Of a stretch of 64,000 nucleotides of DNA, positions 1-45,056 are shown piece after piece (position 1 is the stretch's first letter; each line of letters begins with the position of its first letter). A model generated the notes under the pieces. It made no database searches. It was not told the DNA's origin and was given only the letters and a program-made list of their open reading frames with translations. Source of the stretch: Pyropia yezoensis (Eukaryota; Rhodophyta; Bangiophyceae; Bangiales; Bangiaceae); contig CM020619.1 in assembly GCA_009829735.1 (NCBI GenBank), positions 22,314,671-22,378,670 on the forward strand, written 5' to 3'. The position numbers and the translations under genes were made by a program.

Positions 1-828
1 CTCCACTCCCGGGGTCGCCCTGGCTCTCCTCAAGTTGGGGAGAGACGCTCTGGCTATCGCGGCACGAGACCCGCCTCGAGTTGAGGGGGACTCGGATCGT
101 GGGTATACGGGTGGCCTCCCCAGCGTGGGGCGGCCCAGTGGAAGGTGAAGGGGAGGTGGTGGTGATGGTGAAGTGTGAACTGAGGAGAGCAAGCTGCCGA
201 GTGGGCAAGCTTGAGGAGAGGGGCGGTCAACGCGACCGCCTCCACATCCGCGTTACGTACTCGATGGGGGACAGCAAGTCGCGCCCCCAACGCCGAGACG
301 TGCGTTTACGCACCCCCTCACAGGGCCGACCGGGTCGGTCGGAACTGAGGAGAGGGGAGTGTGGCAGCATTGACCCCCAGGTAGGGGGGCAACACGTGCC
401 ATGCAAGGGGCGGCAGGCCACTAGCCTGATCCGTTCCTCCCCCTGCATTTGGGTCCATATTCCCTAAGTTTGGGATAGTTAGCTTAGTAGTAAATCCAAC
501 TTGGATTTGAGGGTTTTCTGCATTTATCGTCTTGAATTTTCGTGTGGCCCGGTGGGCAGGTGCTGGGGTGGGAGATTCTGAGTGGCGAGATTCTGAGTGG
601 ACCCTGGGGGGATAAGGGGAGGGACAGCGGGGCTTGGCCCTGCGTCCCCGTCCCGACCAAGAAACTGTTGGACCACACACCATCCTCTTGTTTGTCCGTG
701 GGGGGTTTGCCCTACAACAGGGACAGAGTGTGTGCGACTTGCACTTCTTCCGGTTCCCCCGACACGGGAGGCAGCCCTTGCACACCGCCCCAACTTGGGT
801 GCCGTGTGTGCATGTGGTTTTTGCCACA
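1..828 (+). mobile_element. 3' end of a family-C LTR retrotransposon (continues left of window)
   Basis: Positions 1-359 resemble 37822-38178, the stretch just upstream of the family-C LTR at 38179. Positions 360-828 match that LTR (about 80%) and the solo LTR at 44582-45050 (near identical). A purine tract (GAGGAGAGGGGAG, about 347-359) sits directly before the LTR, as a polypurine tract does before a 3' LTR, so the element reads on the plus strand and its body lies left of the window. Its right edge abuts element D sequence, so this copy probably inserted into D. The minus-strand ORFs here are not conserved enough to call. Confidence 0.65.
360..828 (+). repeat. Family-C LTR, copy 1 (469 bp)
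   Basis: It starts TGTGGCAG and ends TTTTTGCCACA. The boundaries come from comparison with two other copies in the window (38179-38647 and 44582-45050), all 469 bp. It is preceded by a polypurine tract, so it is a 3' LTR. Confidence 0.75.
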
Positions 829-871
829 CCGGGCTGTGCGTGGGCACTACCGCAGCCCTGAGGCGACGTCG

Positions 872-2759
872 ATGGACGATAGGGTTGGTTATGTGGATGA
901 CGCGCCTCTAGTGGCGGCGGCGCGTACCAACCGGTTGCTAGCCTCGAAGCGCATTCGCGACGCCCGTTGGGCGTGTGGCGTTCTGGCCTTTGGGGTCAGG
1001 TGGGCCCTCGGTGAGGTGACTTGGGACCCGGTCGGCAGTGTTACGTGGAGCCCTACGCTTGCTGGGGATCCTTGGCCAGGTGGCCCGGCGTTGTGCCGAC
1101 ACACCCGGAGCCCTGATTGGCCCACCCGACTCGAGGACTTGCCCGGTTTGTGGGCGTGTTGACACCCTTTGTCATTTGCTTGATTTTCGTATTCATTTTC
1201 CTTGCGTGATTTTGTGTCTTTCTTCTTTTTACCACTGAATATTTTTTGGGGATTGACATTTGTGTGTGTGGGGATTTTCGCTTGCTTTTCGTTAGTTGGC
1301 CCGGTGAGTGGCCGGTGCCTTGCTGGCACTTGGCCCGCTGGGGGCGCCCTCTGGGGGCCCCGCTCTGGGCCCCTGAGGGGGCCAGGGGGAGGGTTCTTGA
1401 AGATCGCTTCGGGGTCTCCCCGGGACCATCTTGTAAAATCAACAGTGCTCAACAGTGCTTAGGGTTCTTGCTCCCTCGGGCTTTTGTCCTTGTTACCTTG
1501 ATCTCTGACGGGGTGGGCGAGTGGATCACGCTTGGGCACTTACCTGCTCCTTCCTCGCCTGTCTGTGGCCTCCTACGTGTGTGTGGTTGTGGGGACTGTG
1601 AGGGCCATAACGCTACGGGGCGGACCTGGAACTGTTTCAGGAAGCCACGTTGGGCTGGGCGTCTTACGCCGGCGAGTCCGTCAAGGACGTTCATGCTAGG
1701 CTATGGCGCCTGTGGCGATTTTCACCCGTTCCATTCTCGGCTGTATGCCTGGGCTCTTTGCTTCCGCGTCGGGAGCACCGAGACGCTTGTCGTAGCGGCC
1801 AGTAACTTCGGACGTCTGCTGCGTCTGTGGCCTGCGGCCTTTCTTCTTGAGCGGTCCTTGGCCGACAGGCCAGACGCTCCGATGGCTGAAGAGCCGGGTA
1901 TGGCAGGGTATCTCACCCTGTTGGCCTACAAGGCTTGGTCGGATGATGGCCCGCCCGAGTTGGGCTATGGTCCGTCTACGGCTTGCCTGCCCACTCCCTT
2001 TCGGGACCCGTCGACGGCCGTGCGCCATCGGCGTATGGCGGACATGCTCGTTATTGAGCGTCGCGGCCTGTTGGCGCCGGCGTGGGTGTCGAGCATGACA
2101 CGTGCTAAAACCTACTTCGATTTGAAGCCTTGGTTGATGGAGCGCCCGTCCTCGTGGACCGATTATGGGCCGTCCATGGAGACGCCGGTACCGGTATCGT
2201 ACGTCGCCACTCGGCTTACAAAAGCCAACAACGCGGCTTGGGGCGTCGTCTACGACGAGTTATTTTGCTTCTTGCTGGCGGCATGTGTGCACTGGCTTGT
2301 CCATGAGGGACTGTATTGCTGGTTGTCCGACCAAGTGTTGGAGTGGCTAGACGCCTTGGATTACGGCCGTCTGGCCGATGGGCCGGAAAGCGAGGCGCGC
2401 GTAACGGCTTATCGCCAGATGAGGCAGGTTCACGGCAACATTCCGTGGTCCACGGTGGTGGCAGATGTCCGTCGTCCCGACTATCGCAGTCAGGCGGCTC
2501 GCCAGGTCTACGTCAAGGTTGAAGCGTCAGCCAAGTATGGCTTCGTACTTCGCCAGCCGCACGGCAGTTTCGACTGGAAGCCAGACATCTCTTGGGTGAT
2601 GCCAGAAGGCTCGACAGCTGTCGCGCGTGGCCCGCCGCCCGGTGGGCGAGGCAATCGCCGTAAGGCGCGGGCCCCCTCTCAATCCGCTTCTCCGCCTGCT
2701 GCAGGTAGGTCGGTTGACCGTTGTTGCCCCACTGGACAGCCCCCATTTCTTCTGGTCCC
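872..2759 (+). pseudogene. Element D antisense accessory gene, first part (cut by element A)
   Basis: ORFs 872-1162 and 1246-2759 (the second in the -1 frame relative to the first) read on the plus strand, opposite to D's integrase at 34378-35895. The product is Trp-rich with hydrophobic stretches and has no domain I recognise. Motifs match the antisense ORFs of A and B by eye: a Trp followed by a G-rich and P-rich stretch (about 1936-1990), a DYG..P.P.V.Y block (about 2160-2200), a hydrophobic block (about 2260-2340) and a VYVKV block (about 2505). A Pro/Arg-rich linker follows. The ORF runs into A's LTR at 2760, and the missing C-terminus lies at 33551-34020. Whether the frame change near 1162-1246 is a mutation, a frameshift or an intron is unresolved. 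The start is uncertain. Confidence 0.55.
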
Positions 2760-6138: not shown

Positions 6139-6197
6139 GACTTATCGAGGCTCTGCCCGTGCCCTGAGCAAGGACGACCTCTTAAAATCTGCTTGAA

Positions 6198-8246: not shown

Positions 8247-8609
8247 TGTAGCAATATGGTTGTCCGTATTGTGACCCTAGTATTAGGGGGGCTACTTCTA
8301 ATCCTTAACTTTCAATTTGAGAGTCCGTACTGGTCACGGTATCTATAAGTTACGTATGACCAGAGGGACTTGCATCTTGGGGTGGAGGGTAGTTAGTAGT
8401 GTCTCCGAGGGTTTATAACGAGGGGGCCGGTGGCGAATCCACCGCCGGCCAAGGTAGAACAACAAACCCCTCCCATTTGGGCTCCCATCTTGGTCCCGTG
8501 GCTTGCGCTCCAAGGACAGCAACCTTGGCCTCCCGGTGACGTTGGTGCCGATCCCCCTTGGTGAGTGTTCCCTGAGAGTGGACGTGCGACGGATTCCTAT
8601 TGTGCTACA
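8247..8609 (+). repeat. 5' LTR of element B (363 bp)
   Basis: It runs TGTAGCAATATGG...TGTGCTACA with inverted TGTA/TACA ends. A TATA-like TTATAA sits near 8413. A short palindromic GC block (GGCCGGTGGCGAATCCACCGCCGGCC) follows it. Related copies lie at 18598, 60582 and, truncated on the minus strand, at 53760-53910. Confidence 0.95.
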
Positions 8610-8610
8610 T

Positions 8611-8628
8611 TGGTGGAGCAGCAGGGGA
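8611..8628 (+). promoter_or_regulatory. Primer binding site of element B
   Basis: TGGTGGAGCAGCAGGGGA begins 1 nt after the LTR and is identical to element A's site at 3335-3352. Confidence 0.75.
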
Positions 8629-8828
8629 CGGGTTTCCGTCACCCTTGTGGTGACGCCGTCTTCGGCCCTGGCACACGGATAGGGATCCGGTCCTTTTCTT
8701 GTACTCGTGGTGTTGCGACCTGATCGAATGTGTTGAGTTTTTACCTTTGACTGTGATCTACTGTTACTCTCCCCAATCTACCCCCTCGCTCTCTTATTCG
8801 TGGTGATTGTTACGTCAGTCGACTGATT

Positions 8829-10814
8829 GTGACGATGTCTACCCAAGAGACGGGGAATGTTCAAGACGACGGATCGGCGTCGACGCCGACCCCGGAGGTG
8901 ACTACGGGAACTGGGATCGGGAACCCGATCGACAAAATTGAGACGCCAATGCTTTCCGGTGCCGGATCGACGTTTTTCACGGCTCGGACGGCAGGAGGCG
9001 GGGGTCCGCCTCAACTGTCATCGACCGACCTCACTCCGCCGCCTCCTTCACCAGGGGATTCCCTGATGGCATCATTGGCCCGCATCGAGGCCCGGTTTTC
9101 CGGGCTCGACGCCCGTCAAGATCGGACGGAGGACGCAATGGCAGTGTTGATGTCAACACGCCACACGACGGGACCCCGACGGGTTCCTCCCACACCGGTA
9201 CGGTTCGAACCGGCCGGACTACTTTCGGGTTCCACCAGGGTCAACCCCGGTGTTGCTACTCCTGGACAACCCCCGGACACAACGGGGTATGGATCCGACT
9301 CGTCGGCTGAGTTGGAACGTAGCCACACGGAGCGATACGCTCGGAGCACCCGAAGCGGACTCCGCGGACACGACCCGGCGGATACTTACGCCGGTGGGGA
9401 GTCGGTTATTGGGGGAGGGGGTACCCTCTCACAGTACCCCCACGACGACGGAGGCCAGGCAACTCGGGTTCCTGAGGTGCCGACGCCTGAAGTACCATCT
9501 TCAGTGGTGGAAGCTATGACCGCGCAGGTAACTGCGAGCCTACTGAAGCGGATGGAGTCCGATGAGTTTGCTCATCAACTGGCTAAGCGACTGGATATCC
9601 AGGACGCTGACACGGAGATCGTCAACGAGGTCTTCCGGTCGGTACTGACTCCCGAACGGTATCGTTTGGAGGACCGCTCTACCACCGTATCGGAATCGAT
9701 GCGTAATACGTCGCATAGGGCGATCCGCTCTATGCAGACCCTTATGAAGGGAGTCCCTATGTTCGGGGGGCCGAACGGACGCCCGTTGGCAGTCATCGGC
9801 TTCTTGACTAGCTTCAAGGCAGCCGCGGACAAGGCGCTCGTCAACGAGGGGCTGGCCCTGGAGATCCTCCCGTTCTTTGTTGATGAACGGGTGCGAGGCA
9901 TTCTTCGCCAGGCATCCCCGATGCCGGGAATGAGGGTTGCGGCCACCCCCATGGATTACCGTGGGATTCTCAAGGAGCCGCTGAGCAGTTACCTCAGTGA
10001 GGACAAGTGCGAGGACCACTACCGGGCCCTGCGCACGGCCACCGCCCAGAGCTGGGAGGATGAGGAGATGTTTGGACGCCGGATCCAAGAGCTCGACTAC
10101 GAGCTGGGGAAGCTCCTCGGAGAAGGGGAGCTACGGGCCATCCTGTTCGCAGGAGTACCCAACTACGTGCGGATATCCGCTCGGGGAGCCAATACGGCGC
10201 GGACCAACTTCAGTCGACTGATGCATATGTGCAAGTCCCTAGGGGACGCCTACCGGGTTCTACACCCGGAATGTGCCTTGGCCCCGAAGCCCAAGGGTGA
10301 GGGAGGCAAGCCCAGTCTTACCCCGGTACCGAGGCAAGAGAAGGTGGAACGTAAGGCCGCACCAGTACTGGTGGCGACCGAACATCCCCCTATTGGTGAG
10401 GAGAAACCTCTAGTTGACCAACAGGGCCACCTGTTGCTACCGGCGACGCCGGTGATTGATGAGCACGGTACGGTAGCGTACATTGCCCCGGCGGGGACCC
10501 AGTTCCAGGTCTGCGAGGGCACGGGACGTCGCGTCCCGTACGTACGGACTACGGGGTACTCCCCGGTGACGGGTAACCCTCATCAACCCTTGCCAACATG
10601 GGCGGTGCGCACGGAGGCACCCCCGCAGATTGCGGGCCGACCCAACCGGTTGGGGGAGTCCATGTTCCGGTTGACCCAAGGACCCAAGACGTACCTGGGA
10701 GCAGGCACTCGGGCGCCCGAGGGAGGCAACCGCAGCTACGGGGCTACCCCGATGCGAACTCAAGGGGGGACCGGCACGTCCGGATGTATGTTGTGTGGGG
10801 ATCCCCAACACTAG
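8829..10814 (+). CDS. Gag polyprotein of element B
   Basis: A 661-codon ORF with a Pro/Thr/Ser-rich N-terminus (residues 1-220), a helical capsid-like core (about 240-460, including an IRSMQTLMKG block and an EDKCEDHYRALR block) and a basic linker. It would form the particle that packages element RNA. The ORF ends at TAG 10812-10814 in the middle of a CX2CX4HX4C zinc knuckle: C-M-L-C-G-D-P-Q-H precedes the stop, and the last Cys comes four codons after the His, counting the stop. The frame stays coding-like beyond it (see 10812-11014). ATG 8835 is an alternative start. Confidence 0.9.
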   Translation: MTMSTQETGNVQDDGSASTPTPEVTTGTGIGNPIDKIETPMLSGAGSTFFTARTAGGGGPPQLSSTDLTPPPPSPGDSLMASLARIEARFSGLDARQDRTEDAMAVLMSTRHTTGPRRVPPTPVRFEPAGLLSGSTRVNPGVATPGQPPDTTGYGSDSSAELERSHTERYARSTRSGLRGHDPADTYAGGESVIGGGGTLSQYPHDDGGQATRVPEVPTPEVPSSVVEAMTAQVTASLLKRMESDEFAHQLAKRLDIQDADTEIVNEVFRSVLTPERYRLEDRSTTVSESMRNTSHRAIRSMQTLMKGVPMFGGPNGRPLAVIGFLTSFKAAADKALVNEGLALEILPFFVDERVRGILRQASPMPGMRVAATPMDYRGILKEPLSSYLSEDKCEDHYRALRTATAQSWEDEEMFGRRIQELDYELGKLLGEGELRAILFAGVPNYVRISARGANTARTNFSRLMHMCKSLGDAYRVLHPECALAPKPKGEGGKPSLTPVPRQEKVERKAAPVLVATEHPPIGEEKPLVDQQGHLLLPATPVIDEHGTVAYIAPAGTQFQVCEGTGRRVPYVRTTGYSPVTGNPHQPLPTWAVRTEAPPQIAGRPNRLGESMFRLTQGPKTYLGAGTRAPEGGNRSYGATPMRTQGGTGTSGCMLCGDPQH

Positions 10815-11014
10815 GTGTCTTCCTGCCCACTCATCCCCGAGGAGTCTCGGCGGGCAGCGGCGCAACGCAAGGCATCCACCGGGGGGTATCCCGCCAGAGC
10901 ACCCGGACCCGCACCGGGTAGGTAGCCAGCTCCAGGTGGAGTACTGGCCGTCGAGGAGGCACCTCCTCAGCCGGATGTCCCGGCGGACAGCACCCCACCA
11001 AGGGCGGGGAACGA
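10812..11014 (+). other. Gag frame continuing past the TAG within the zinc knuckle
   Basis: In the gag frame the sequence after TAG 10812-10814 completes the knuckle (V-S-S-C) and continues with a basic then Pro/acidic tail to a second TAG near 10918 and a terminal TAA near 11013. Either both TAG codons are CAG to TAG mutations or the first is read through, as in some retroviruses. Pol (11027) is in another frame, the equivalent of a -1 shift. Confidence 0.6.
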
Positions 11015-11026
11015 GTAAGAGGAAGG

Positions 11027-14000
11027 ATGACCGGGGGGCGCTGGGGTAACCCAAGCAAGCCACCCCGGAGTACCGCGGGGAAAGCCCCACGGAGAGCGCG
11101 GTTGAGCCGACGCCGCATCAACCCCCGGGTACACCTTCCGGCCCCGACGACACGGCGTCAGGGGATTGATGACCAACCTCCAAGGTTGGGAGGAGAGGAC
11201 GGGAAGCCCCGTCACATGGAACCAGACACGGGCCCTGATCAGGATGCCCGAGCTACACCGGATATCGGTGTAGGCCACGTACTGTTCACCTTGGAGAACT
11301 TCAAGGTATCAGCTACACTGGGGGTTGACCCCCAGTCGACACGATCGTACTACCCTGTACTAGATACAGGAGCTGGACCCAACCTTATCCGGAAGGACAC
11401 CCTCCCGGACAAGTGGCTTCCGCGAGTCAGAGTGACTCGGGGACCCACCATCAAGGATGCGAATGGTCGCCTCATTCGTACGACCGCAGCGATGTCGCTG
11501 CGGGTTACCATCGGGGAACTCACTACGGAAGTCGACTTCCTGGTGTGTGAGACCCTATCGGTGCCCTGCATATTGGGATGCACCTTCATCAACGTTCACG
11601 TTGATGCAATCCGGCCGGGCCGGAGGACCGTCGAGCTGCAAGAAGCCGACGGGACGAAGCGAGGACATACGGCTATCTTCAGGGACCTGACGCTACAAGG
11701 GAGCCACGTTAACGTGGCTGAGGTGTACGCAAGCGTCGAGCCGAAGACACTTCGGTTGGCCAAGCGAACTCGCTTTGAGCCGTTGTCGGAGACAGTCCTC
11801 CCGGTTAACTGTGACCTCGCAGGCATCTGCAGAGTCAAGTCCAACCTGCGGACGTACAAGCGCCATGGGTTGACCATGGCCAACGGTCTCATAGACCTCC
11901 CAGCAGGAGGGTCGTCCCTCCTAGTGATGGCGAACTATCGCCGTAAGGCAGTCACCCTCCCGAAGGGAACTATCCTCGGGATTGCCGAGCTCTACGAAGG
12001 AGGTATCCTTACCCCTGACAAGGAAGGTCAAGTGGAACCCCTTGAGGTGCTGGCGGCCGCCGAGACCACCGAGCGACAGCAACCCGATGACGGGAAGCCT
12101 AGCCCATCGGCGGCTCCGGCGGACATGCCGCCAAAGGACCAAGAAGCACTGAAGGCCCTGGCCGAGGCTGACCTCAACCACCTTCCCCCTTCGGTTGCCG
12201 AAGGGGTACGACGGATGCTAAGGAAGCATGACGTCATGTGGACAGGCGGGGCCTTGGGTACCATATGGGCAACCCATTATCGTATAGACCTGGTACCAGG
12301 CGCGCGACCCGCCCGGTCACAACCGCACCGAGCGGGACCTATGCAACGAGAGATCGTTGATGGAGAAGTGAAGAGGATGAGCGAAGCGAAGGTGATACGT
12401 CCTTCGATGTCGGAGTGGGGTGCCCCAGTCGTTATCGTACCGAAGAAGGATCAAACCCCTCGGTTTTGCATCGATTATCGACGCCTCAACTTGGTTACCA
12501 AGAAAGACTCCTACCCTTTACCAAGGATGGATGAATGCATCGACTCCCTGGGGGAAGCTACGGTGTTTACCACCATCGACTGCAACGCCGGATACTGGCA
12601 GATCCCGGTGGCGGACGAGGATATCCCCAAGACGGCATTCGTCTGTCACAGTGGAGTGTACGAGTTCCTAAGGATGCCCTTCGGATTGTCCAACGCCCCC
12701 GCTACATTCCAGCGGGCTATCGACATTATACTGTCGGGGGTGAAGTGGCGTAACTGCCTAGTGTACCTCGATGACGTCATCGTCTTCTCGCGTAACATGG
12801 ATGACCATGTGCAACATGTGGACGAGGTACTCACCCTCTTGAGGGACGCCGGGGTAACCCTGCGTCTGAAGAAGTGCGCATTCTTCCAACAGACGGTCGA
12901 GTATCTGGGCCACCAGATAACCCCTGGTAAACTAGGGGTACTCGAAGCCAATACCCGGGCACTCCGGGATGCCCGGTTCCCTAACACCCAGACACAGCTC
13001 AAGAGCTTCCTGGGAATGTGCAATGTATACCGACGGTTCGTCAAGGACTTCGCTCGGATAGCTAAACCGTTAACGGTTCTTACGAGCAGTACCTTGCCCA
13101 AGGTACTCCAACCCCCTTCGCCTAGCGAAGAGGAGGCATTCGAGTCGCTGAAGCGAGCCCTACTATCCCCACCCGTCCTTGCGTTACCGCACAGACGGGG
13201 GACCTTCGTCATCGATGTCGATGCGTGTGATACACAAGTGGGATGCACCCTGTTGCAGGGAGAGACGTTGATCGGTACCGATAACGTTATCCCGGACCTA
13301 CGTCCGGTAGGGTACTTCAGCCGGACACTCAACCCGGCTGAGCGTAACTATAGTGCCACCGAGCGTGAGTGCCTCGGAGTTATATGGGCAGTGCAACTGC
13401 TCCGTCCATACCTGGAGGGCTCCAGGTTCATCGTGAGGTCCGACCACGAACCCCTACGATGGCTCCTCAACCTTGGTGACAAGGATTCCGATAGCCATGG
13501 GAGGCTAGCCCGATGGAGGTTGAAGATGGCCGAGCACGACTACCGTACCGTGTATAAGGCTGGGTCAACCCACCATCTCGGAGACGCATTGTCTCGACTC
13601 GACACACCGAGCGGGGATACCCGCCCGGTGGACGAGGACATTCCGGTGGTACCGGTCTGCATGGTCGGTAACGCTACCCAAGGTATGGTTGACCATACCA
13701 TGGCACACCGAGCATGCCCACTGACCCTCGCGGACTTCCGCGAGGCACAAGCCAATGACGACGACTGTAGACGTCATCGTGCTAACCTCCTGGCCGGTAC
13801 GGCCGGCATCTTCTCCGAGAACGAAGACGGACTCATATACCGGCGGGCACCCGCCGATGGACGACATCAAGTCGTAGTTCCCGTGTCCTTACGGCAAGCC
13901 GTCATGGAACGAGAACACGAGAACCCCACATCCGGACACCCGGGGGGTTCCCGTATGTTCGCAGCAATGCGAAGGTTCTTCTACTGGCCAGCAATGGCCG

Positions 14001-15193
14001 TCGACGTGGTCGACCACGTAAGGGGATGCCACCCCTGTGCACGTAACCGCATGAGTCTACATAGGCAGGCATCTGCCATGAAGCTATTCCCACCCGATGG
14101 GCCCAACGAGCAGGTCGCTATCGACATACTCGGGCCACTTCCGGTAACGGAAGAAGGGAACAGGTACATCCTGGTCATGTCTGACCGCTTCACTAAGCTG
14201 TCACGAGCGGCAGCCACTCCGAATGATACGGCATATACCATCATGAACACAGTGGTTGACCACTGGATCAGTGCATACGGAGTCATGAAGCAACTCCTCT
14301 CCGATAACGGAGCAAACCTTACGTCAGCATTCTGCACTAAGGTCCTGGGCATGTTCGGTATCGAACCACGTCGGGCATCCGACTACCACCCGCAAACCAA
14401 CGGGCAGGTGATGCGGTTCAACCGCACCATCGTTAAGATGCTACAGTGCTACGTGGCCGAGCACACGAACACTTGGGACAGGCTTCTCTCCGTACTCACC
14501 CTGGCATACAATGCCAGGCCACATCGGAGCACGAACATCGCTCCGTTGGAGTGGGTCATGCCACTAGGCGTCGGTAACCTGACGCTGCCGCCAGGCAGGT
14601 GCACTCGGTATGATACACCGAAAGGCCGACCGGCCAAACGTATCCACCTAGCTTGGTTGGCCAAGCTATCGTGGATGATTCCTAAGCTCAAGGGTGCCCT
14701 CGACAGAACACAACTTCGTTACAAGAAAAACTTCGACGCCCGACTACGGGTGCGCAACGCTACCCTGATGACAGGTGACTGGGTCTATATCAGACACCAG
14801 AAGTTCCGAGGGAACAAGCTTATGCAACCGGTCAAGGGACCGTACCAGATTCTCCACAGAGATGACCACTCTGTTATCTTACACTCCGATACGGAGATCC
14901 AACGCATCAGTGTGAATGATGTCACACCTGCTCCGAAGCCGGAACAGCCTCAGCCGGTACCGGCTGGGTTGCTACATGAAGCCCTTACAACCCACCGGTC
15001 AGATGACCCGGTGGGACCGGATGGTATCCCATACCAAGTAGAGAGCGTGGTCGGACACACCGACCCGGACCTACCAGGACCCTGGTACGTCAAGGTTATG
15101 TGGGTCGGATACGACTCACCCACCTGGGAACAGGCGGCGAATATACCCCGCCAACTCCTCATGCCTTACATGAGGCGACGACGCCTACTGTAA
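11027..15193 (+). CDS. Pol polyprotein of element B: PR-RT-RNase H-IN-chromodomain
   Basis: One 1388-codon ORF. Protease DTGAGPN is near residue 112 and the second half reads ILGC. RT has IDYRRLN, FGLSNAPATFQ and catalytic YLDD (about residue 580). RNase H has FVIDVDACDTQVGCTLL and a TERE block. The integrase has an H-H-C-C zinc domain (ENPTSGHPG...C..CARN), first Asp in AIDILGPLP and second Asp in LSDNGANL. Where the third catalytic residue should be Glu (NGQVERFN in relatives) it reads NGQVMRFN, so the DDE triad lacks its Glu. A chromodomain-like end (about 1340-1385: YQVESVV...KVMWVGYDSPTWEQ) suggests targeting to modified histones. The start is the first ATG of the frame; in life it is probably fused to Gag by recoding. 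Confidence 0.95.
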   Translation: MTGGRWGNPSKPPRSTAGKAPRRARLSRRRINPRVHLPAPTTRRQGIDDQPPRLGGEDGKPRHMEPDTGPDQDARATPDIGVGHVLFTLENFKVSATLGVDPQSTRSYYPVLDTGAGPNLIRKDTLPDKWLPRVRVTRGPTIKDANGRLIRTTAAMSLRVTIGELTTEVDFLVCETLSVPCILGCTFINVHVDAIRPGRRTVELQEADGTKRGHTAIFRDLTLQGSHVNVAEVYASVEPKTLRLAKRTRFEPLSETVLPVNCDLAGICRVKSNLRTYKRHGLTMANGLIDLPAGGSSLLVMANYRRKAVTLPKGTILGIAELYEGGILTPDKEGQVEPLEVLAAAETTERQQPDDGKPSPSAAPADMPPKDQEALKALAEADLNHLPPSVAEGVRRMLRKHDVMWTGGALGTIWATHYRIDLVPGARPARSQPHRAGPMQREIVDGEVKRMSEAKVIRPSMSEWGAPVVIVPKKDQTPRFCIDYRRLNLVTKKDSYPLPRMDECIDSLGEATVFTTIDCNAGYWQIPVADEDIPKTAFVCHSGVYEFLRMPFGLSNAPATFQRAIDIILSGVKWRNCLVYLDDVIVFSRNMDDHVQHVDEVLTLLRDAGVTLRLKKCAFFQQTVEYLGHQITPGKLGVLEANTRALRDARFPNTQTQLKSFLGMCNVYRRFVKDFARIAKPLTVLTSSTLPKVLQPPSPSEEEAFESLKRALLSPPVLALPHRRGTFVIDVDACDTQVGCTLLQGETLIGTDNVIPDLRPVGYFSRTLNPAERNYSATERECLGVIWAVQLLRPYLEGSRFIVRSDHEPLRWLLNLGDKDSDSHGRLARWRLKMAEHDYRTVYKAGSTHHLGDALSRLDTPSGDTRPVDEDIPVVPVCMVGNATQGMVDHTMAHRACPLTLADFREAQANDDDCRRHRANLLAGTAGIFSENEDGLIYRRAPADGRHQVVVPVSLRQAVMEREHENPTSGHPGGSRMFAAMRRFFYWPAMAVDVVDHVRGCHPCARNRMSLHRQASAMKLFPPDGPNEQVAIDILGPLPVTEEGNRYILVMSDRFTKLSRAAATPNDTAYTIMNTVVDHWISAYGVMKQLLSDNGANLTSAFCTKVLGMFGIEPRRASDYHPQTNGQVMRFNRTIVKMLQCYVAEHTNTWDRLLSVLTLAYNARPHRSTNIAPLEWVMPLGVGNLTLPPGRCTRYDTPKGRPAKRIHLAWLAKLSWMIPKLKGALDRTQLRYKKNFDARLRVRNATLMTGDWVYIRHQKFRGNKLMQPVKGPYQILHRDDHSVILHSDTEIQRISVNDVTPAPKPEQPQPVPAGLLHEALTTHRSDDPVGPDGIPYQVESVVGHTDPDLPGPWYVKVMWVGYDSPTWEQAANIPRQLLMPYMRRRRLL

Positions 15194-15650
15194 CAACCCA
15201 ACCGACACCGACTTCGGCTGTTGGGGGGTGAGGCTTATACCTACTAAGTAGGGTGTGACAAGGTTACGGCAGACTTAGGTTTCTAAGTCAAATCAGACTT
15301 AGGTTTCTAAGTCGAACCAAGCTTAGGCAATTAAGTAAAATCTGAACCTTAATAAGTTAACTTAAAGGTAAAGGCTAACTCCGATAATATCGAAGTAACT
15401 AGGGAGCTTACAAGGGAGGATGACCTCCCCAAGCCAAGACACGAAGTGAGGGAGGATGACCTCCCCAAGCATGAACCAACCGGAAGAAGTTGGACGGGAG
15501 GTAAGGCACCACTGAGCCAGAAGGGGTACTCCCCAGGGCAGCAAACAGAGGCAAGCAATGCCCCCGAAGGGGATGAGTTTATACTCACTACTACCCGGCC
15601 ACCATAAGGGCCACCGGGTCCCTCTCCCGTACAAACAATAACACTCCTCA
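15194..15650. other. Convergent gap between pol and the antisense gene of element B
   Basis: No ORF seen. It holds three imperfect copies of an AGACTTAGGTTTCTAAGTC-like unit (about 15270-15340), each partly palindromic (CTTAG...CTAAG), and two GGGAGGATGACCTCCCCAAGC units (about 15415-15470). These could be termination or processing signals for the two converging transcripts. Confidence 0.5.
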
Positions 15651-18015
15651 GTGGGTAGACCCACTGCCCGAGGGAGGCCACTCACGCGTAAGCGCGTATA
15701 CCTCCGTGCTCCACCGGTCGGCAATCTCACGACGGTCAATCACCCGAGTTACCTCGGTGCATAGCTGGACGAGGGTGCTGCGGCCAGCCTCCACGTCCTC
15801 CAGAGCTTTCTGGAGGCGGTCAAGCACGCCACCGAAGCAACGCGCTGACCCAACCAGCGCCGCACCTGGGGGGATATCCCCCCAGCTAACAGAGAGACCC
15901 TCCCGCATTGCGCGGGCAACAAGGGCGTCAACGCCCTCATACCAGAGACGGGGACCCCCGTCATGTATGACAGGGGCGGGAGGGGACACTGGCGCAGCCA
16001 GAGGGGCCACATGAGCCGACACGGCTACCACCGGAGCCGGTGGCACCTGATACGAGGCCCGGTAGGACCCTACCGAAGGGGCTCCACCGTAACCCCGGCG
16101 GGGCTCCGCCCGACGACGGGACACCTCACGCTCCCCACCCGCAGAGCCCCACTCTCGGGGACGACGGCCAACCGCCGCCGGTATCGGGTTACCGAACCAC
16201 GGGGCAAGGACCTGAAGAGGGTCATGGATAACCATGGGAATACCCAGGTCAGCAACAGCCTCGGTGGACGCCCACCCATGGCAACTAGGCTCACCCGGCT
16301 GAGTACGCCGGATACGCAACGAGTGACGAGGCAAGGGGGTAGCCCCAGCCTGCGGGTCCCGATACGGGGGAAGGGCTAACACCCCAGCCCAGTTCACGGC
16401 ATCGTGAACAGCCAGCAGGGCCTCGAACTCCCGGGCCAACCCGGTCTTGGCAGCTATCAGATCCACGCCCATCTGCGCGATGTGCTGACGGACGCCCGTC
16501 GGAAGATGAAACAGGCGCCCCTGCCGGCGGACGGACAGCAAGAAGGAGGAAGCCTGCCCGAGGGTAACCTCAAGGGTGAAGGTACCCTGCAACGGGTGGA
16601 CCGGCCGGGAGGCCAACACACTCCCAAAGTATCGGAGACAGGAGCCGGTGTCAAACCGGAAAGCAGGGGCGGGTTCCCACCCTCCTGCCATAGCGGCGGG
16701 CGCACGGGAGTGTATACCGGCGCACGACCGTTGCCGGTCTGCAACGCACACGTTATATCCGTGCGAAACGCATCCGCCATGACACCATGGTTACGTCGCC
16801 AGCTCGACGCCGACTTCAACCCCGCCATAGTCGGGTAGGGAGCCGTCAACGACAGATACGGGGATACCCCCGGGTAATAGTCAAAGTCGGGATACCGACC
16901 GGTACTGCCCACCGTCTCCCCAAACGCAACCGGCTCCGCCGCCGCCGCAATCCCCCGAGCACTAGCCGGGTAGTCAATCTCCCGCGGCAACGCGGGGGCA
17001 ATCAGGTCGCATACCCCGAAGGCGGGGTCGAGGTAGATCTCACCCCGTCCCACTCGAGTGCGCCAGAGCTGCGCATGCCGGTCGTCCGGCTGACTCAGGA
17101 TCCAATGGTGTTCCACTCGCACCGCGTTCGGCTGGTTGACCAGCCACATCAACTCCCGCTCCCAATTCGGGTCCACCTTGACGCGCCGGGAGGACTCTCC
17201 ACGGGATGTGGCAGGTGGAAGTCCACCCGCATCCGCCCATCGGACTCCATTGACTCTTGTACAGTCAGGCCTCGAACCCGAGCCACCAAGTCGGACATCG
17301 ACATGGCGGGTTGACCCGCCGCCACGGCGACGCCGCCACCCAACGGGGCAACCCGGGCAGGACCAGGAAGCATAGGGGGCGCCGGGGGATGCCCTACCGG
17401 CAGAGGGGCCGGCACCGGAGTCGCACGGGGCCGAGGAGGAAGAAGAAGGGCGGGCGCCCGCCCGGAGTAACTACCGGAGTCCACTGCCATCGGTGTAGAC
17501 CCACCTTGACCGCCAGACGCCCGCGGCACCGCGGGCAGAGCAACGCCGCCACCCGAGCCCGACGGGGGCACCTTGGGGGCAGCAGGGGTAGACCCGCCAC
17601 CCGCAGCCGCGGATGAACCACCCGGGCGGGCACCCGCGCCGTCTTGACCCGCCGTCCCGGTCGGGGTGCCACCATAACCTCTCGACACGCCAGCGACGCC
17701 GTCTTGAGGTTGAGCCGCGCCGGCACCGGCGACAGAAGCCATCCGGGCCGCCGGAGGAGTAGGGGTAGACGCAGCAGCTACCCGCGGTTGCCCGCCACCC
17801 GACGGAGCCGTCGTGCCGCTGCACACGGACGACAAACCGCCCGGAGCACCGTCAGGAGCCACACGAACGGTCACCCGGTCGTCCTCGTCCTCGGACGAGC
17901 TCGCGAGGAAGCACTCGGCGGCGGTGGCGGAGACGGGAACGTCGTCCACCATCACCTCTTCCCCCTTCTCAGGCAGGAGGTCGTCCTCACCCCCGGGTAC
18001 CTGGGGGTCCGACAT
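15648..18015 (-). CDS. Antisense accessory protein of element B (unknown function)
   Basis: The frame starts at ATG 18015 (minus) and continues through three overlapping frames: 18015 to 17149, 17176 to 16457 and 16751 to 15648, each a -1 step, for roughly 780 residues. The N-terminus is acidic (EDD, SSEDEDD) followed by about 200 residues rich in Pro, Gly and Ala. A conserved-looking core has NWERELMW, LWRT..GRGEIYLDP, YYPGV.PYL and a Tyr-Phe/Leu hydrophobic block, then an Arg/Pro linker and a C-terminal helical segment (GGVLDRLQKALEDV). No known domain was recognised. It converges on pol, and matching ORFs occur in A and D. Whether one spliced, frameshifted or mutated product is made is not settled. 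Confidence 0.7.
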
Positions 18016-18586
18016 GGTGCAACCGGGGTAGCAGGGGCGCCCCGTGCAGAAAAGCCGAGGCCGGCTCGACCCCGTACAGAGAACGCTCGCACGGACGAGC
18101 CAGGGAAGCGCGGGCACCCGCGCTTATAACCACACAGCTGGGCACCAGCGATAGGGAAGCGCGGGACGACCCGCGCCAGCCGACCAACGAGGGCGCTCCC
18201 GCCAGGCACCTGGGGCGGGCCACGCCCCCCCCACACGGGGTAATCGAGGGGGGGTCACCCCCAACCGCCCCCACGTAACGCGGGCAGCCCCCGCCCCCAC
18301 TCAATCGTCCACACGAGAGGGCCCCCTACCACCAGGCACTGGTGGCGGATCCGCTTGCACCACCCCTCGGAAAGGGGGGTCGTGAACAGAACCCGCATCG
18401 GGAATCTAACGGTCCGGAAACGGATCGTGTGTGTACCACACAAAGGGGGGCACCCCCCTCAGACAACCTCGAAAAGGGGTGTCTGTCGCGACGGGGCGCA
18501 AAGCCCCACCCGACGGGTAAACGGTCACGCGACCCACTTACATTTGGTAATCCGAATGCAACTCGACCCGAGGACGGGCTGAATCT
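18016..18586. other. Leader region of the antisense gene, no other gene seen
   Basis: GC-rich, with runs of CCCC/GGGG; it carries the TATA-like site near 18125. No conserved ORF. Confidence 0.4.
18121..18132 (-). promoter_or_regulatory. TATA-like box upstream of element B antisense gene
   Basis: On the minus strand the sequence reads GGTTATAAGCGC about 110 nt upstream of ATG 18015. The LTR has a similar TTATAAC. This suggests the antisense gene has its own internal promoter. Confidence 0.4.
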
Positions 18587-18596
18587 AAGGGGGGAT
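18587..18596 (+). promoter_or_regulatory. Polypurine tract of element B
   Basis: AAGGGGGGA lies immediately before the 3' LTR at 18598 and would prime plus-strand DNA synthesis. Confidence 0.75.
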
Positions 18597-18597
18597 A

Positions 18598-18962
18598 TGT
18601 AGCAATATGGTTGTCCGTATTGTGACCCTAGTATTAGGGGGGCTACTTCTAATCCTTAACTTTCAAATTTGAGAGTCCGTACTGGTCACGGTATCTATAG
18701 GTTACGTATGACCAGAGGGACTTGCATCTTGGGGTGGAGGGTAGTTAGTAGTGTCTCCGAGGGTTTATAACGAGGGGGCCGGCGGCGAATCCACCGCCGG
18801 CCAAGGGTAGAACAACAAACCCCTCCCATTTGGGCTCCCATCTTGGTCCCGTGGCTTGCGCTCCAAGGACAGCAACCTTGGCCTCCCGGTGACGTTTGTG
18901 CCGATCCCCCTTGGTGAGTGTTCCCTGAGAGTGGACGTGCGACGGATTCCTATTGTGCTACA
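18598..18962 (+). repeat. 3' LTR of element B (365 bp)
   Basis: It differs from the 5' LTR by three substitutions and two single-base insertions, and is followed by the target duplication AGCCC (18963-18967). Confidence 0.95.
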
Positions 18963-19192
18963 AGCCCATTCAATTCACGGGAGCAGGAGCAGAGCGAGCC
19001 GTCCAAAGGTTGAAAACTAATGCGCGTGCCCTCTGGCTCACTCGGCTGGGCCTGTGGGCAAGGATGTGGGCCAGAGAGAAGCCCTCTAGTTCACAACATT
19101 CCGCCTGTATCAAAGGCCTTTTGGGCAGGCATCGATGCACCTCGGCAACAGGAACTGCTCCGCACCACGTGGGATCCCCCCTGCTGCACACC

Positions 19193-22510: not shown

Positions 22511-22531
22511 ATGGTAGGGCCTGATCAAACG
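22511..22531 (+). repeat. Right terminal inverted repeat and target duplication of the hAT
   Basis: ATGGTAGGGCCTG (22511-22523) then ATCAAACG (22524-22531), matching 7790-7810. Confidence 0.93.
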
Positions 22532-23831
22532 GATGTACGCCTCAATGCGGCGACACTCCTACTTGGAAGCCATGGCAAGTGAAGTCCATACGCATCTGGA
22601 AGCTTGTGTATTTTTTTGCCAGGAACCGGTTGAGGAAAAACACTTGCAAGCTACGCCTGTTTTCTGCGGTGGAGCCCTTTATAAGCTTGAATATGGACAT
22701 CCTGGGGCCCCTACCTGGGACATACAGTGGCAACCTCTACCGGCTCATTATTTGTGACCGGTTCTCCAAGTTCACTCGAGCAATCCCGCTGAGAACCATA
22801 CAGCCCTGGATGTCGCGTCGGCCTCCTGTGAGTACTGGATAGCCCCCTACGGCCTTCCGGAGTCCGTCTTGACCGACAACGGACCCCAGCTTGCATCCGT
22901 GTACTTCCGAGGAGTCTGCGACCGGATGGGTATCAAGAACTTGTTCACAACCACGTATCACCCGCAAACGAATGGTCAAGTAGAAGGATTCAACCGGACC
23001 CTGGTAGACATGCTCGGGTACTACGTTGAGGAGCATCAAGAAGACCGGGACAAGCTCCTGGCCATCCTCAGTCTGACGTACAACTCCCGGGTTCACAGAA
23101 CGACCGGGGTAGCTCCCCTAGACTTTGTCACACCAAGGCTGTTGACCAAATTCTCCCTGGAAAGGATTCCTAACGGCCTTGAGCCTGGCCCGAAGCCGGG
23201 TCCCAAGGCCAAGGATGAGCTCCTAGAATAGCTGAAGCTTCTTCCCCCACGAGTCAAGTAGTCATTTGCCAATACCCAGGAGCGATGCAAGCGGGACTTT
23301 GACAAGGGTGCACGGGAAAAGAACAAGGAACTGGATGATGATCACTGGGTTTTTGTGAACAGCCATAGCGAGACCAGGGGGAAGCTGGAATCGAAGATAA
23401 ACGGGCACTATGAAGTACTGAGCACGGACGGCTGGACGTTTTATCTAGACGTGGATGGTTCCCCATACCGGTCGAGTAGCGACCACGTCCCTCGAGCTCT
23501 AACGCGAAGCAAGAGGGACCTGACTCGGCGCAGGTACCATATTTATCACGAAAGGAAGGCCGCGAATATATCTACGTCAAGTTCAATGACCATGCCTGGA
23601 GTGCGCGTGCGCTGATCCAGCTTCAACTTGGCTGACGATACCTGGGAGCCATCTAACCGGTTACCCATTGCTGATGTCTGTGCCTCCACCCGGCGGAACG
23701 GGATTGAAGGTACACCAGTGGCCAAAGCTGGCAAGATCCTCAAGACATTCTTGGAGGACGACGAGAAGGAAAGAACTGACCAGGGCCTGCCAGGCAAGTC
23801 CAGCTCGGAAGCGACGGACGAGGAACAATAA
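22532..23831 (+). pseudogene. Second part of element A pol: integrase and chromodomain
   Basis: Directly after the duplication the zinc-binding domain continues (RRH...HTHLEAC...C). Catalytic residues follow: Asp in NMDILGPLP (about 22690), Asp in LTDNGPQL (about 22875) and Glu in NGQVEGFN (about 22975), where the usual Arg is Gly. Frames shift near 22640 and again before 22800. The open core frame ends at TAG 23229-23231. The C-terminal GPY-like region (about 23355-23540) and a degenerate chromodomain (about 23560-23700, ending DDTWEPSNRL) follow with further breaks. Confidence 0.85.
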
Positions 23832-23999
23832 GATTAAGAAAAAGGAACGGGTGCATTAAGGAATCAAGCTCTACAAACATGGAACTACCAGGAAACCAGC
23901 AAGCACCCGTTCGAGCAACCCTTCTCTTCGCCTCTTCCCTCCTCGATCCCCTATGGCTTCTACCTTTCGCTTCCTCGAGTCTTACTCCCGGCGCGCGCG

Positions 24000-25333
24000 C
24001 TACGCGGCAGGAACATCCTCCAGCGCCTCACTAGTAGCATGATGGGACCCAGACGATGACGGGATGACGTAGTAGGGCGGCCGAGACGCCTCGGCATACG
24101 CCACCACCGGAACAGCACTTGTAGCAGCCGGACGCTTCCGCTCCGCCAGGTTCGCCCGCGAGCGCTCCTGGAACTCTTGCAGGTCCCTTACCAGCGCTGG
24201 GCCAGGCCATGCCGAGCCAAGGTGTCCAGAAGCTCGAGGACCACCGAACTATCTGACATCTGGGCGCTGTCCGCTCAAGCAAACACCTGGTCAACCACGT
24301 CATTCAAGACGCTGGCGTATGTACCCAGCACCAAGGAAGACCGGACGCCCTCGACTTGCACCGGAGGTCGTCCCGGCTGATCCTAGATCATGCCCCTATC
24401 GTACCGGTCACAGGAGGGGCCACCTTGAGTCAGGTACCAGTCGGGGACCCGGAAGCGAGAAAGGCCGAGGATCGGAGCTGGAATCTCAAACTGACCAGGT
24501 GGCGCTATGCGCGGACGGCTAACACTAACCCCTGAAACCGGAGTGCCAAGCTCATATGTAGGCACGGAACCACGAGCAGCCGTAGCCGTCGCCCGACCAG
24601 TAGGCCCCGAGGTAGAAGGCGACCGGATAGTGATACCCGGGGCAGCACCAAGAGTCGAACCCGGACAGCGCAGTGCCGGATGAGCCCGGAGAACCGGTGC
24701 GGGGGGAGCCCGCGGCACAGGCGCCCGCGAAGACGGATCGACTGATGCCACAGGAGCTACCGGAGGAACTTGAGCAACCACGTAAGCCTGTAAAGCAGCT
24801 GCAGCCCACCCCGCTTCTTACACCAGCCGAACAGATGGAAGCAGGTCCAAGGCGGCCGGCGCCGGAAAGCTTCCCAGCTGCGAACACGCCGGCAACGGGA
24901 TCGCCAGCTGCACCTTAACAGGAGAGGACTGGTAGACCACCTGCACCCAACCAGAGTCATCCTGAAGCGCGCTATTCTGCTCAGCGATCAAATTCAGGAA
25001 CATACCGTCATGCAGCGTGAGCTGACGCCGGAAGTCGATCATCGCCTGGAAGAGCTGCTCGTACTCCGCATCCTGGCTGCGCAAGAAGTCGACGGTCAGC
25101 TTCTTGCTAATCTAGACCATTATCAGGTCCGAGAGAAGCCAGGGCCCGTTCAGCACCAAGACTCCATGTATACAGTGGTTGGCCGCAAGAACAGTCATCT
25201 CGAAGATGTACATCATGTACAGGATCGAGTGAATGAATACCTTGTTCGACGTCTGGGTGAGCGCGTGAAAGAAGTACGAGGTGGAGAGGATGCTGGATGG
25301 CGCGAACCCGACCGGGATCTCAACGTGAGGGAT
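24000..25333 (-). pseudogene. C-terminal part of element A antisense accessory gene
   Basis: Reading leftward from the copia insertion, the segments are: PHVEIPVGF with a Tyr-Phe and hydrophobic block (about 25330-25112), TAG, SKKLTVDFLRSQDAEYEQLF (about 25100-25040), VQVVYQ (near 24940), a long Pro/Ala linker, YLTQGGPSCDRYDRG (about 24440-24390), SSLVLGTYASVLNDVVDQ (about 24350-24290) and an end at TAG 24000-24002. These match in order the ORFs of B and D. Internal stops (TAG near 25113 and 24390; TGA near 24275; TAA near 24185) are consistent with C-to-T changes. The gene converges on A's pol. Confidence 0.6.
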
Positions 25334-26063
25334 CAATGGGAGGTAACCAGGGGTGATTGATAAAGGAGTAGAAACCAATACCGTGCTGAGTGCCCCGTAC
25401 TTGGTAATTCGCGAATGTGAGAAGTAGGGGTGCGTGACACCAATGCGTAACAGGTCCCGTCTCTTCAAGGCCGCGTAATCGGCCCTGTAGCGTCACAAGT
25501 GAAGGGCCGCGTTATCGGCACTATCAAGAATGAACGTTTACAAGAAAAGACAAAGGCACAGACGCAAATGCCGGTCGGCTGCCTGCGGCGGCGACTAGCG
25601 TCCCTCAAATACCCCCCCTCCCTCATTCCCGTCTCGAGAGGACCCCTCGTGACCCCTCGTTGGGCCACCCCATAGTGCGGGCACAGTTGCCCGCCGCTTA
25701 TCCGCCCTCTCAGTCAGGTCCATCATCCTCTGGGGCCGGGACCCAGCACGACCGGTACAATCGGCCACGTGAGTCCGCCGCCAGTAGCGTCCCGCCGTCG
25801 GGGCGACGTCCGCGGCGCTGGTCGCGACACGCGTCGCTTGCCGGTCCTGTTCCTGTCGTGGCGAGACCCACCACGAGCAGGCGCCCATCACGCCAGCTGT
25901 GGCACTGCGCAACGAGGTGCCATGCCCCCCGTGACTGGCCACACAAGCAACGCCCAAACAACATATCTTGCCAGCCGGCTGCTTAAGCAGCCGGCCACAA
26001 CTTGAGACCTGCCGCCCCACCAAAATGCGGCAAGTCGTCACAGAAGGTCCAGAAAGTCTCACA
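25334..26063 (-). repeat. Copia 3' LTR (730 bp)
   Basis: On the minus strand it starts TGTGAGACTTTC and ends CCTCCCATTG, so the 3' terminus is not the usual CA. Nearly identical to 31428-32157. Confidence 0.9.
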
Positions 26064-29606: not shown

Positions 29607-29611
29607 ACCCC

Positions 29612-32162: not shown

Positions 32163-33166
32163 GACCTTGGGGTAGTTGGCGCCCGGTTTGCCTTGTCCAG
32201 CTTCCATACCTCCTCGTGGTTGCAGCTCACGATGAAGTCCCGCTGGCACCTCCCACGCTTACCTTGCTCCCGCGTCGGCGACAACATCGAGGACTGCCTG
32301 GTCAAGAACAGAGGCTCCAGAGCAACCAACTCCGGAGTTGGGTCGCAGGTAAAGGTCCCCGGTCCCTGGAGTGCCGCGTCCCAAACCTTGAGCGCCCAGC
32401 GGACGCCGTCTTCCTCCTCCGGCCACCGAAGCACTGACGCGGACACACGGCGCTCGGTCCGGGGGCGATCCAGAATCATTGCAAAGGGGAGGTCCTCAAG
32501 GCAGGCAACCTGAGCCGAACCGGAAAAGCTCCGAGAGCGGTCTTGAGCCAGGCGCATCTGGTCAGCTGTGTTTAACCGCGCCTTGTCTATCTTGATGATA
32601 TCCCCGCGCTGGAGTACTTCGCGCCAGATGCCCAGGCAGTCCTGCTGTCATCGGATCGCGCTCACGATCCCGACCACCGTGGTGTAGCGCCGGCCCGCCA
32701 GGGGATCTTCACCAAGAAGAATGTCCGGGAGACCCACCGGGGGGGTCTCGACACGGCGCGAAGCCGGAGCCGGGGGCGCTTGTTCCTCATCCTCCGCCGG
32801 GACGACCGGCATCGGCGACGACACTCGCAGACTCGTGGGCAGGAGCGGGGCACGCCCCGAGATCTCCTCCACAGGACCCACCGCCGGAGCCACGGGCCCA
32901 ACCTGGATCTCGGAGGTGGATATGCCTTCCAGAGCCAAAAGGAACGGGAAGGCCAAGGTGAGGGGAGGAGCAGGTGGTAGGTGCCCACGGCTCAGGGTGA
33001 AAGCGATCGACCTCCGTAACGGCGTGGACGTGCGCGAGGCTGTGCACGGGCGCACCTGGAAATGCCCGAGGATGTTCCGGACTAGGGCTTGAGCTATGTA
33101 GCATCCCTGGCCCTGACTTGGCGCCGATCCGGGATGGTGACCAGGGGACACCAGATGCCAGAACAT
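32163..33166 (-). pseudogene. N-terminal part of element A antisense accessory gene
   Basis: The minus frame starts at ATG 33166 inside A's 3' LTR, passes a Pro/Ala/Glu-rich region (EDEEQAPPAPAS) and a LPDILLGEDP block, meets TGA near 32650 and continues with IWREVLQRGDIIKIDK, DLPFAMILDRP, ALKVWDAALQGPGTFTCDP (about 32380) and FIVSCNHEEVW. It then runs into the copia target site with the residues of a NYPKV..P block whose second half lies at 25333. The W..G.G.F..DP block aligns with B's W..GRGEIYLDP. Confidence 0.6.
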
Positions 33167-33550
33167 GCCTGCCGTGTGGGAATGGTTGGCGGTCGTGGCT
33201 CGTGCCCAGCGCTGGGGTGCGGTGGACTGCGCTACCCACAGGTGAGAGAGGGACTTCTGATGGGCTCTTGCAAGCTTATGAGGGACTTGATTGGAGGGAC
33301 TTGAGTGCGAGACTAGCGAGGAAGAAAAGAATTTGTAGTGACAGTGGCCCCCGACCTGACGAAGTTAGACTCGGGTCAGGGCCACTCAGCGCTATGGGGG
33401 GGCTACCGGGCGAACGTGCCGAGGCTCTTCCAAGATACACGGTAAGAGGGACAGCGAGGCGCCTTCGGCCCGCACCCTCAGAGAATAAGACAACTGCGCG
33501 TTTGCATTCTTCTTCCCAGTGTGCACTAGGCAGATCAGGTTCATACCACA
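33097..33550 (+). repeat. 3' LTR of element A (454 bp)
   Basis: It runs TGTAGCATCC...CATACCACA. It aligns with 2760-3330 but lacks an internal block of about 115 bp near its 3' end. The next bases are gttcg. Confidence 0.85.
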
Positions 33551-34020
33551 GTTCGGGTGGGCATGAGCCGCTTTGGCCGTCCGAGTGGGCTTGAGCGGGT
33601 GTGGCTGCCCTCTGGGGTACGGACCGGGCGGGGGAGCACCGTAGCCGGATGGTCCCTCGCGGGGCGACGGCCGGGGCGTTGGCCATTGCTTCGTCGCACA
33701 GGATTGGGGAGCTCGAGGGCGTTTTGCAGCGAGTGAGCGGTATGACCGAGGCGACGGCCGTTAAATCGTCGATTCATACGGTGTTTCGCTTTACCAAGGT
33801 GGACTATGTCCGGGACAGCATGCTTGCTGAGTTGCGGTTGGCTTCAGAGGTGGAGGTTCGGCACACTAGCCCTCGTCCGGTTGACGTGAATGCCATCTTG
33901 GGCGTGCGTCGGCGCACCGTCGAGAAGGACGACGAGGAGGAGCCGCCTTTGACGCAGAACGTGCGCCACACTCGTTCCTGCAGTCCGTCGTATGACGAAG
34001 ATCGGCGCCGCCACTATTGA
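33551..34020 (+). pseudogene. C-terminal part of element D antisense accessory gene
   Basis: If 33551-33555 is taken as the (mutated) target duplication, the frame of 1246-2759 continues at 33556 without a shift: GGHEPLWPSEWA, TGA (near 33591), then SSHRIGELEGVLQRV (about 33690) and an acidic, Arg-rich tail ending at TGA 34018-34020. GGHEPLW aligns with B's DGGPRLW and A's QGGPSCD, and GVLQRV with B's GVLDRL. The tail converges on D's integrase 360 nt away. Confidence 0.6.
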
Positions 34021-35895: not shown

Positions 35896-35901
35896 ACGCC
35901 A

Positions 35902-45050: not shown

Positions 45051-45056
45051 CCCGCG

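Follow-up and report, generated by a model that had tools for sequence, protein, structure and literature searches.

Antisense protein-coding genes between pol and the 3' LTR of Ty3-type retrotransposons in the red alga Pyropia yezoensis

What do the LTR retrotransposons of a red alga encode on the strand opposite gag-pol? The question is raised by a stretch of 64,000 nucleotides of the Pyropia yezoensis genome (hereafter the window; part of contig C2, 34.3 Mb), in which an earlier note had described, in each of three elements (A, B and D), a gene that runs against gag-pol and ends tail to tail with pol. Mapped with intact or open relatives, all three elements do carry coding sequence in this arrangement (Table 1). 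Antisense accessory genes of unknown function have been reported between pol and the 3' LTR in plants and fungi (PMC7264820 and PMC11963269, in excerpt). None of the matches listed in the open PMC literature describes antisense ORFs in retrotransposons of red algae, subscription papers lying outside the scope of that search. Our main reading is that in three red-algal Ty3 families a third protein gene occupies the opposite strand of the stretch separating pol from the 3' LTR, that it would have a promoter of its own and that its product would be a regulator; for this explanation as a whole we estimate a probability of roughly 0.6.

From the repeats and the matches we read the locus as three nested Ty3-type elements, B lying inside A and A splitting D. 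Element B (8247-18962, plus strand) is laid out as follows: its pol ends at 15193, the antisense gene covers 15648-18015 and the 3' LTR starts at 18598, immediately preceded on its 5' side by the purine-rich AAGGGGGGATA. In Pfam, B pol matched RVT_1 (E 4e-36), RT_RNaseH, Integrase_H2C2 and rve above the cut-off and the protease under it; the gag-like frame gave no Pfam match. The description of B as young holds for its LTRs, which are 98.6% identical with AGCCC on both sides, but not for the antisense gene of the window copy, which is broken into three overlapping frames. Element A, on the plus strand around B, has likely LTRs at 2760-3189 and 33097-33527 (87% identical) and pol pieces at 5296-7759 and 22525-23612. 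Its antisense gene is cut by a further nested element, E (25321-32154, minus strand, 6.8 kb, terminal repeats 99.3% identical), with a Copia-type reverse transcriptase (RVT_2); a search of E for an antisense gene of the A, B or D type found none. The antisense gene of D is cut in its turn by A; the pieces of this gene show an overall identity of 50-70% with the relatives P0010 and L067, and the rve match in the D pol remains (E 2e-5) is under the cut-off. Across their matched pieces the pols of A, B and D are 27-52% identical.

Table 1. Coordinates in the window of the antisense genes and of the element parts that frame them. P0001, L062, L067 and P0010 are intact or open relatives used for mapping.
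Feature	Position	Strand	Remarks
B antisense gene, part 1	17203..18015	-	residues 1-271 of intact relative P0001 (18015-17203), 90% identity; third frame
B antisense gene, part 2	16670..17203	-	residues 272-449 of P0001 (17203-16670), 96% identity; another frame
B antisense gene, part 3	15648..16682	-	residues 446-789 of P0001 (16682-15651) plus stop, 97% identity
A antisense gene, N-terminal part	32165..32923	-	residues 2-254 of L062, 66% identity; dN/dS 0.24 over 161 codons
A antisense gene, middle and linker	24191..25360	-	residues 250-637 of L062, 63% identity; severed from N-terminal part by nested E
A antisense gene, C-terminus	23985..24173	-	residues 644-706 of L062, 60% identity
D antisense gene, N-terminal piece	776..976	+	P0010 residues 10-71, 55% identity
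D antisense gene, core	1693..2730	+	L067 residues 77-421, 59% identity; dN/dS 0.29 over 325 codons
D antisense gene, C-terminus	33445..34011	+	L067 residues 394-582, 50% identity; severed from core by nested A
B element, 5' LTR	8247..8609	+	98.6% identical to 18598-18962; ends TGTAGCA..TGCTACA; AGCCC flank at 8242-8246
B element, 3' LTR	18598..18962	+	98.6% identical to 5' LTR; AGCCC flank at 18963-18967
B gag-like open frame	8757..10814	+	685 aa, stop to stop
B Ty3-type pol	10922..15193	+	1423 aa, stop to stop; matches to RT, RNase H and integrase, a weak one to protease
A element, integrase part of pol	22525..23612	+	tail to tail with A antisense gene; 34-46% identical to residues 1040-1334 of B pol
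D element, pol remains (RNase H, integrase)	34381..35927	-	29-45% identity to B pol residues 739-1195; tail to tail with D antisense gene
Conserved block upstream of B antisense ATG	18100..18129	-	candidate core promoter; TTATAAG in window, TCATAAG in L039 and L049

Elsewhere in the genome (107.5 Mb searched, in 11 contigs, the three largest listed being 43.6, 34.3 and 29.4 Mb) the B gene is a single open frame, with 825-909 codons in many copies; in copy L039 the in-frame ATG that we have chosen gives a protein of 789 aa. Among the best-scoring matches, which are not random samples, frames of at least 789 aa hold 57 of the 119 scored for B (3 of the 57 also have a stop in the matched stretch), frames of at least 706 aa hold 121 of 150 for A (3 of them likewise with a stop) and frames of at least 900 aa hold 9 of 75 for D. 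Chance is ruled out as the origin of such a frame, both by the purifying selection described below and by a simulation: 300 sequences of 2,600 bases, drawn from a first-order Markov model with the composition of one intact B copy, contained no open frame longer than 412 codons, as against 825 in intact B copies. An intron as the main reading of the B gene is excluded as well, the open copies running through in one frame. Nor have we adopted programmed frameshifting, to which the recurring positions of the frame breaks in the first B matches might have pointed; this recurrence is discounted because the search query was itself partly in shifted frames and thus favoured such copies.

For B and D, the arrangement seen in the window recurs throughout the genome. 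The B gene lies tail to tail with pol in all 20 of the loci fetched with long flanks, which were picked from the matches of the genome search for this gene; 420-488 bases separate its 3' end from that of pol. Two 30-base probes, chosen as the most widely shared among the loci at hand and allowed up to 3 mismatches, found 903 B antisense sites and 941 pol-end sites genome-wide, the reversed-pattern controls for both finding 0. When exact matches are counted over the first 14 Mb of contig C1, a pol-end site lies 1,925-2,014 bases downstream on the other strand for 66 of 88 antisense sites, 22 being without an exact partner; conversely, 66 of 100 exact pol-end sites are paired and 34 are not. For D, 17 opposite-strand pairs in tail-to-tail order lie within 7 kb at 15 of 150 scored RT sites, two further opposite-strand pairs link neighbouring elements, and no antisense match on the same strand as the RT was found within 7 kb among these 150 sites. 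For A, the arrangement was observed within the window. A fourth antisense family, sought with D at E 10, did not appear among the 75 scored out of 996 candidates, where the matches were all D-like (lowest identity 42%).

Under neutral decay dN/dS would lie near 1 with stops throughout; this is clearly not what is found, as dN/dS on intact copies is well below 1 and open copies are plentiful. For the full-length B gene it is 0.25-0.45 (12 of the 66 possible pairs among 12 copies, out of 20 fetched), for A 0.19-0.27 (three pairs; 0.24 for the window piece) and for D 0.29 (one pair). A regional analysis of B employed eight copies in six pairs, three between and three within subfamilies, L048 being absent from the full-length set. 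Between subfamilies the core gave 0.12-0.16 over residues 264-450 and 0.06-0.15 over residues 451-610, the linker (611-690) 0.84-1.39, the C-terminus (691-789) 0.57-0.59 and pol 0.10-0.13; the three pairs compare the same two subfamilies and are therefore not independent. The within-subfamily pairs, which have few changes, gave 0.12 to 0.46 for the core, 0.20 to 0.37 for pol and 0.37 and 0.64 for the linker (undefined in one pair). Differences at the three codon positions over B residues 264-789 are 0.030, 0.011 and 0.084, a third-position excess. A lowish dN/dS (0.32) is likewise obtained for one frame read on the reverse strand of the B core, yet this frame contains 14 stops. The dN/dS values and the codon-position pattern are together strong evidence that the origin is neither non-coding nor neutral, and we are nearly certain that this is a selected antisense gene. 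The genes are protein-coding, have a long open frame in many copies and are under purifying selection. Judging by the probe counts, the paired sites and the core dN/dS, the B gene is present in most copies of its family, is about as abundant as its own pol and, in its core, is conserved like the other proteins of the element.

We read the B protein as an acidic low-complexity N-terminal tail followed by a core that is conserved, a linker that is probably flexible and a domain at the C-terminus. Its N-terminal third, compared in the L039 and L049 equivalents of 15648-18015, differs strongly between subfamilies that have closely similar pol. Over the N-terminal 263 residues dN/dS between subfamilies is 0.39-0.48 and dS is 0.43-0.63, about three to six times the values of the core (0.10-0.15) and pol (0.13-0.14). 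This excess of dS over both core and pol suggests that the N-terminal segment has been exchanged between element lineages.

Whether the three genes form one protein family is a separate question. The earlier note had presented them as a single conserved family on the basis of motifs occurring in the same order, a view that our comparisons do not establish and on balance lean against: profile-profile scores are marginal, a control also scored high, and the motif order finds no statistical support in hhalign or in the shuffle tests. The GG..LW motif is indeed present in window B and roughly in D (GGTEPIW in the open copy), but open A has GGPTCD; at this position the Pyropia vietnamensis relatives of B have GGSTPW or GGSSSW. 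By eye, A and B can be lined up at the W..G.G..DP block, but the block stayed unpaired when their alignment was computed. Alignment A1 comprised 15 B-type sequences chosen from the B matches and the proteins of the B protein search. For D, the tests draw on 584 residues from a single open copy and on some shorter pieces. With hhalign we obtained E 0.017 for A-B, 0.22 for B-D and 0.32 for A-D; trimmed profiles gave E 0.033, 0.13 and 0.28, with scores as high in 3, 18 and 46 of 200 column shuffles. In Smith-Waterman profile shuffle tests several pairs reached z 3-4 and the C-terminus of A-B reached 3.6-4.6, the C-termini of B-D and A-D being without support in these tests. When the tests were repeated with fresh profiles, built from 6 of the 15 rows for B, 6 or 8 of the 9 for A and 2 of the 4 for D, they gave z 3.5-4.1 for the A-B C-terminus, 1.3-3.3 for the A-D and B-D cores, 2.1-2.6 for a joint A+B C-terminus against D, and -0.4 and -0.3 for a joint A+D core against B. 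The A-D core score was equalled by 0-4 of 300 shuffles and, in the repeat, by 5 and 47 of 500. In the trimmed-profile hhalign test and the later of the two initial Smith-Waterman rounds, one D row was restricted by masking to its homologous part; in the earlier round it was not. Of the six gag control tests one, in which gag was set against the B core, gave z 3.4, and the other five gave 1.2 or lower.

These scores can be taken in two ways. Perhaps the genes are unrelated, each lineage having taken a different sequence into one and the same permissive position, flanked by pol and the 3' LTR. The hhalign values, none clearly significant, point in this direction, as do the negative scores of the joint A+D core against B and the fact that the best B-D and A-D alignments fall on different parts of D. 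The identical slot and strand in related pols are harder to reconcile with separate captures, and so are the A-B C-terminal signal that recurred in the repeat, the joint A+B C-terminus against D and the A-D core score, although the last was reached more often in the repeat. Separate captures seem to us a serious possibility, if somewhat short of an even chance. The other way is to regard A, B and D as one ancient and very fast-diverging antisense family, an essential third gene of red-algal Ty3 elements with a core under pol-like constraint and an N-terminal tail swapped between lineages. Homology of A and B is plausible, and the shared slot in related pols and the broadly similar layout are consistent with common descent of all three, without proving it; the full proposal nevertheless strikes us as rather unlikely. 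If it were true, the swapping of the B N-terminal tail would be the behaviour expected if the protein were an effector at odds with host silencing.

The role of the genes can likewise be approached through its alternatives. It might be the antisense transcript that matters and not the protein, double-stranded RNA formed with the genomic RNA tuning silencing and the ORF being incidental. The convergent arrangement would suit such a role, and antisense regulatory RNA is discussed for such genes in PMC7264820; codon-level purifying selection, the third-position excess and a frame of 825 codons nonetheless indicate a selected protein. The dN/dS values largely refute an RNA-only role, which we hold to be very improbable, and an RNA role could exist in addition to that of the protein. 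As for the protein, its location between pol and the 3' LTR is that of env, which would agree with an envelope-like or movement-type protein for cell-to-cell transfer. Against this stand the antisense orientation, the basic tail that ends the open D copy and the acidic tail that starts the intact B protein, and the absence of any clear transmembrane segment, the highest 19-residue hydropathy being 1.44-1.58 (one intact B, one intact A and the 584-residue D part); we think such a function very improbable. The env-like ORFs of plant LTR retrotransposons, which share the position, are by contrast on the sense strand and some have transmembrane domains (PMC7264820, in part). Finally, gene transduction by retroelements is possible (same source), and the gene might be a captured host gene carried as cargo. 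The protein searches, each with 8000 candidates scored and reaching close relatives only, offer little for such an origin: an open B protein matched 7 proteins, of which five are hypothetical proteins of Pyropia vietnamensis (32-59% identity where given) and two unnamed (92-96%), while A and D each matched a single unnamed protein (97% and 65%), and there was no Pfam match either. We give cargo hardly any credence. With Pyropia vietnamensis as the source of every named homologue, a fungal origin of the DNA is rejected too.

The remark that no known domain could be recognised has been borne out, no Pfam match over the curated cut-off having been obtained for the antisense proteins and no remote PDB homologue at E 1 for the three profiles. 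In particular, six antisense proteins scanned with hmmscan to E 10 (under the HMMER filters) showed no match to TRP28 (PF04195), and the same six no Pfam match to the plant mobile domain (PF10536). A search of this genome for TRP28 at E 10 also found no match, with no control genome known to hold the domain; a genome search for the plant mobile domain found none, but found none in the control genomes either.

Among known systems, the closest in arrangement are plant Ty3 elements of the Tat/Retand type (Retand ORF4, RIRE2, Grande gene23), which likewise have an antisense gene between pol and the 3' LTR in most copies and for which a nuclear or DNA-related role has been proposed (PMC11963269 and PMC7264820, both in part). 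Retand TRP28 proteins carry PF04195, whereas the red-algal ones are a different protein in a different host. In the fungi, Boty of Botrytis cinerea and Sclerotinia sclerotiorum has an antisense ORF in the same slot (PMC7264820, in excerpt), a likeness of position. The red-algal genes join this known kind, and what is new is their protein sequences and the host group. The pol-level constraint on the core, the approximately 900 probe sites for one family and the absence of a known domain suggest that the slot is used beyond plants and fungi and that the products of the antisense genes matter to the elements. With open copies at hand and relatives in a second species, the function is testable.

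By analogy, the role that we propose is most likely comparable to that of Grande gene23, the Retand TRP28 proteins or HTLV HBZ. The last is a bZIP protein. The antisense gene of HTLV-1 has an accessory regulatory role (PMC11963269, in part) and a promoter inside the 3' LTR (PMC7264820, in part). In the mechanism that we favour, the red-algal gene would have its own promoter, located between the ORF and the 3' LTR, and the mRNA made from it would converge with the genomic RNA. Its product would be a soluble accessory protein, probably nuclear or nucleoprotein-associated, that may act in trans on the expression of the element, on its RNA or on host silencing. Regulation in trans is proposed by analogy with the plant antisense genes, the proteins of which are nuclear or predicted to bind DNA (PMC7264820 and PMC11963269), and we advance it tentatively, as a little less than an even bet; a nuclear or nucleoprotein role would suit the acidic tail of intact B and the basic tail of the open D copy. 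Upstream of the B ATG the two subfamilies are 60-85% identical over about 180 columns and 96% identical over the next 60, which hold a block with ATAAGCGCGGG. As a core promoter this block is suggestive only, because conservation is just as high (at least 95% identity) over most of the sequence beyond it on the way to the LTR and within the LTR.

Several further features of the window deserve mention. The LTR-like repeats at 185-829, 38007-38648 and 44582-45052 are related, 360-830 and 44582-45052 being 95% identical and 185-829 and 38007-38648 just 78%, and there is more than one candidate for the 5' LTR of D. Adjoining the minus-strand pol remains of D is a Ty3 pol fragment on the plus strand (35827-37190; 28-42% identity to B pol residues 964-1334), which we take for yet another element, nested or rearranged. 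Candidate host genes adjacent to the repeats are a Med15-like ORF (weak, below the cut-off), an adenylosuccinate synthetase and an eIF-6, at 46932-50555, 52083-52964 and 62100-63302. The vicinity of another element at 57-60 kb was searched for relatives of the A, B and D antisense genes and none was found. The region 54000-56000, flanked by a partial LTR-like repeat and by the pol of this element, is GC-rich (0.73), strand-skewed and similar in composition to the B antisense region; no A, B or D relative was detected in it.

The B family also occurs in tandem forms. On C1, B-type LTR probe sites form arrays at 807654-819134, 603176-611768, 833762-837847 and 1498850-1507476, with spacings of about 0.88, 1.7, 2.0 and 1.23 kb (or multiples), which look like tandem TRIM-type derivatives of the family. 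At C1:3595198-3604627 three B antisense matches follow each other at intervals of about 3.86 kb, B LTR probe sites lying between them and exact pol-end sites being absent, and at C2:9881081-9892084 there are four tandem antisense units 3,489 bases apart with open frames of 843-897 aa; both are possibly antisense-only derivatives that have lost gag-pol.
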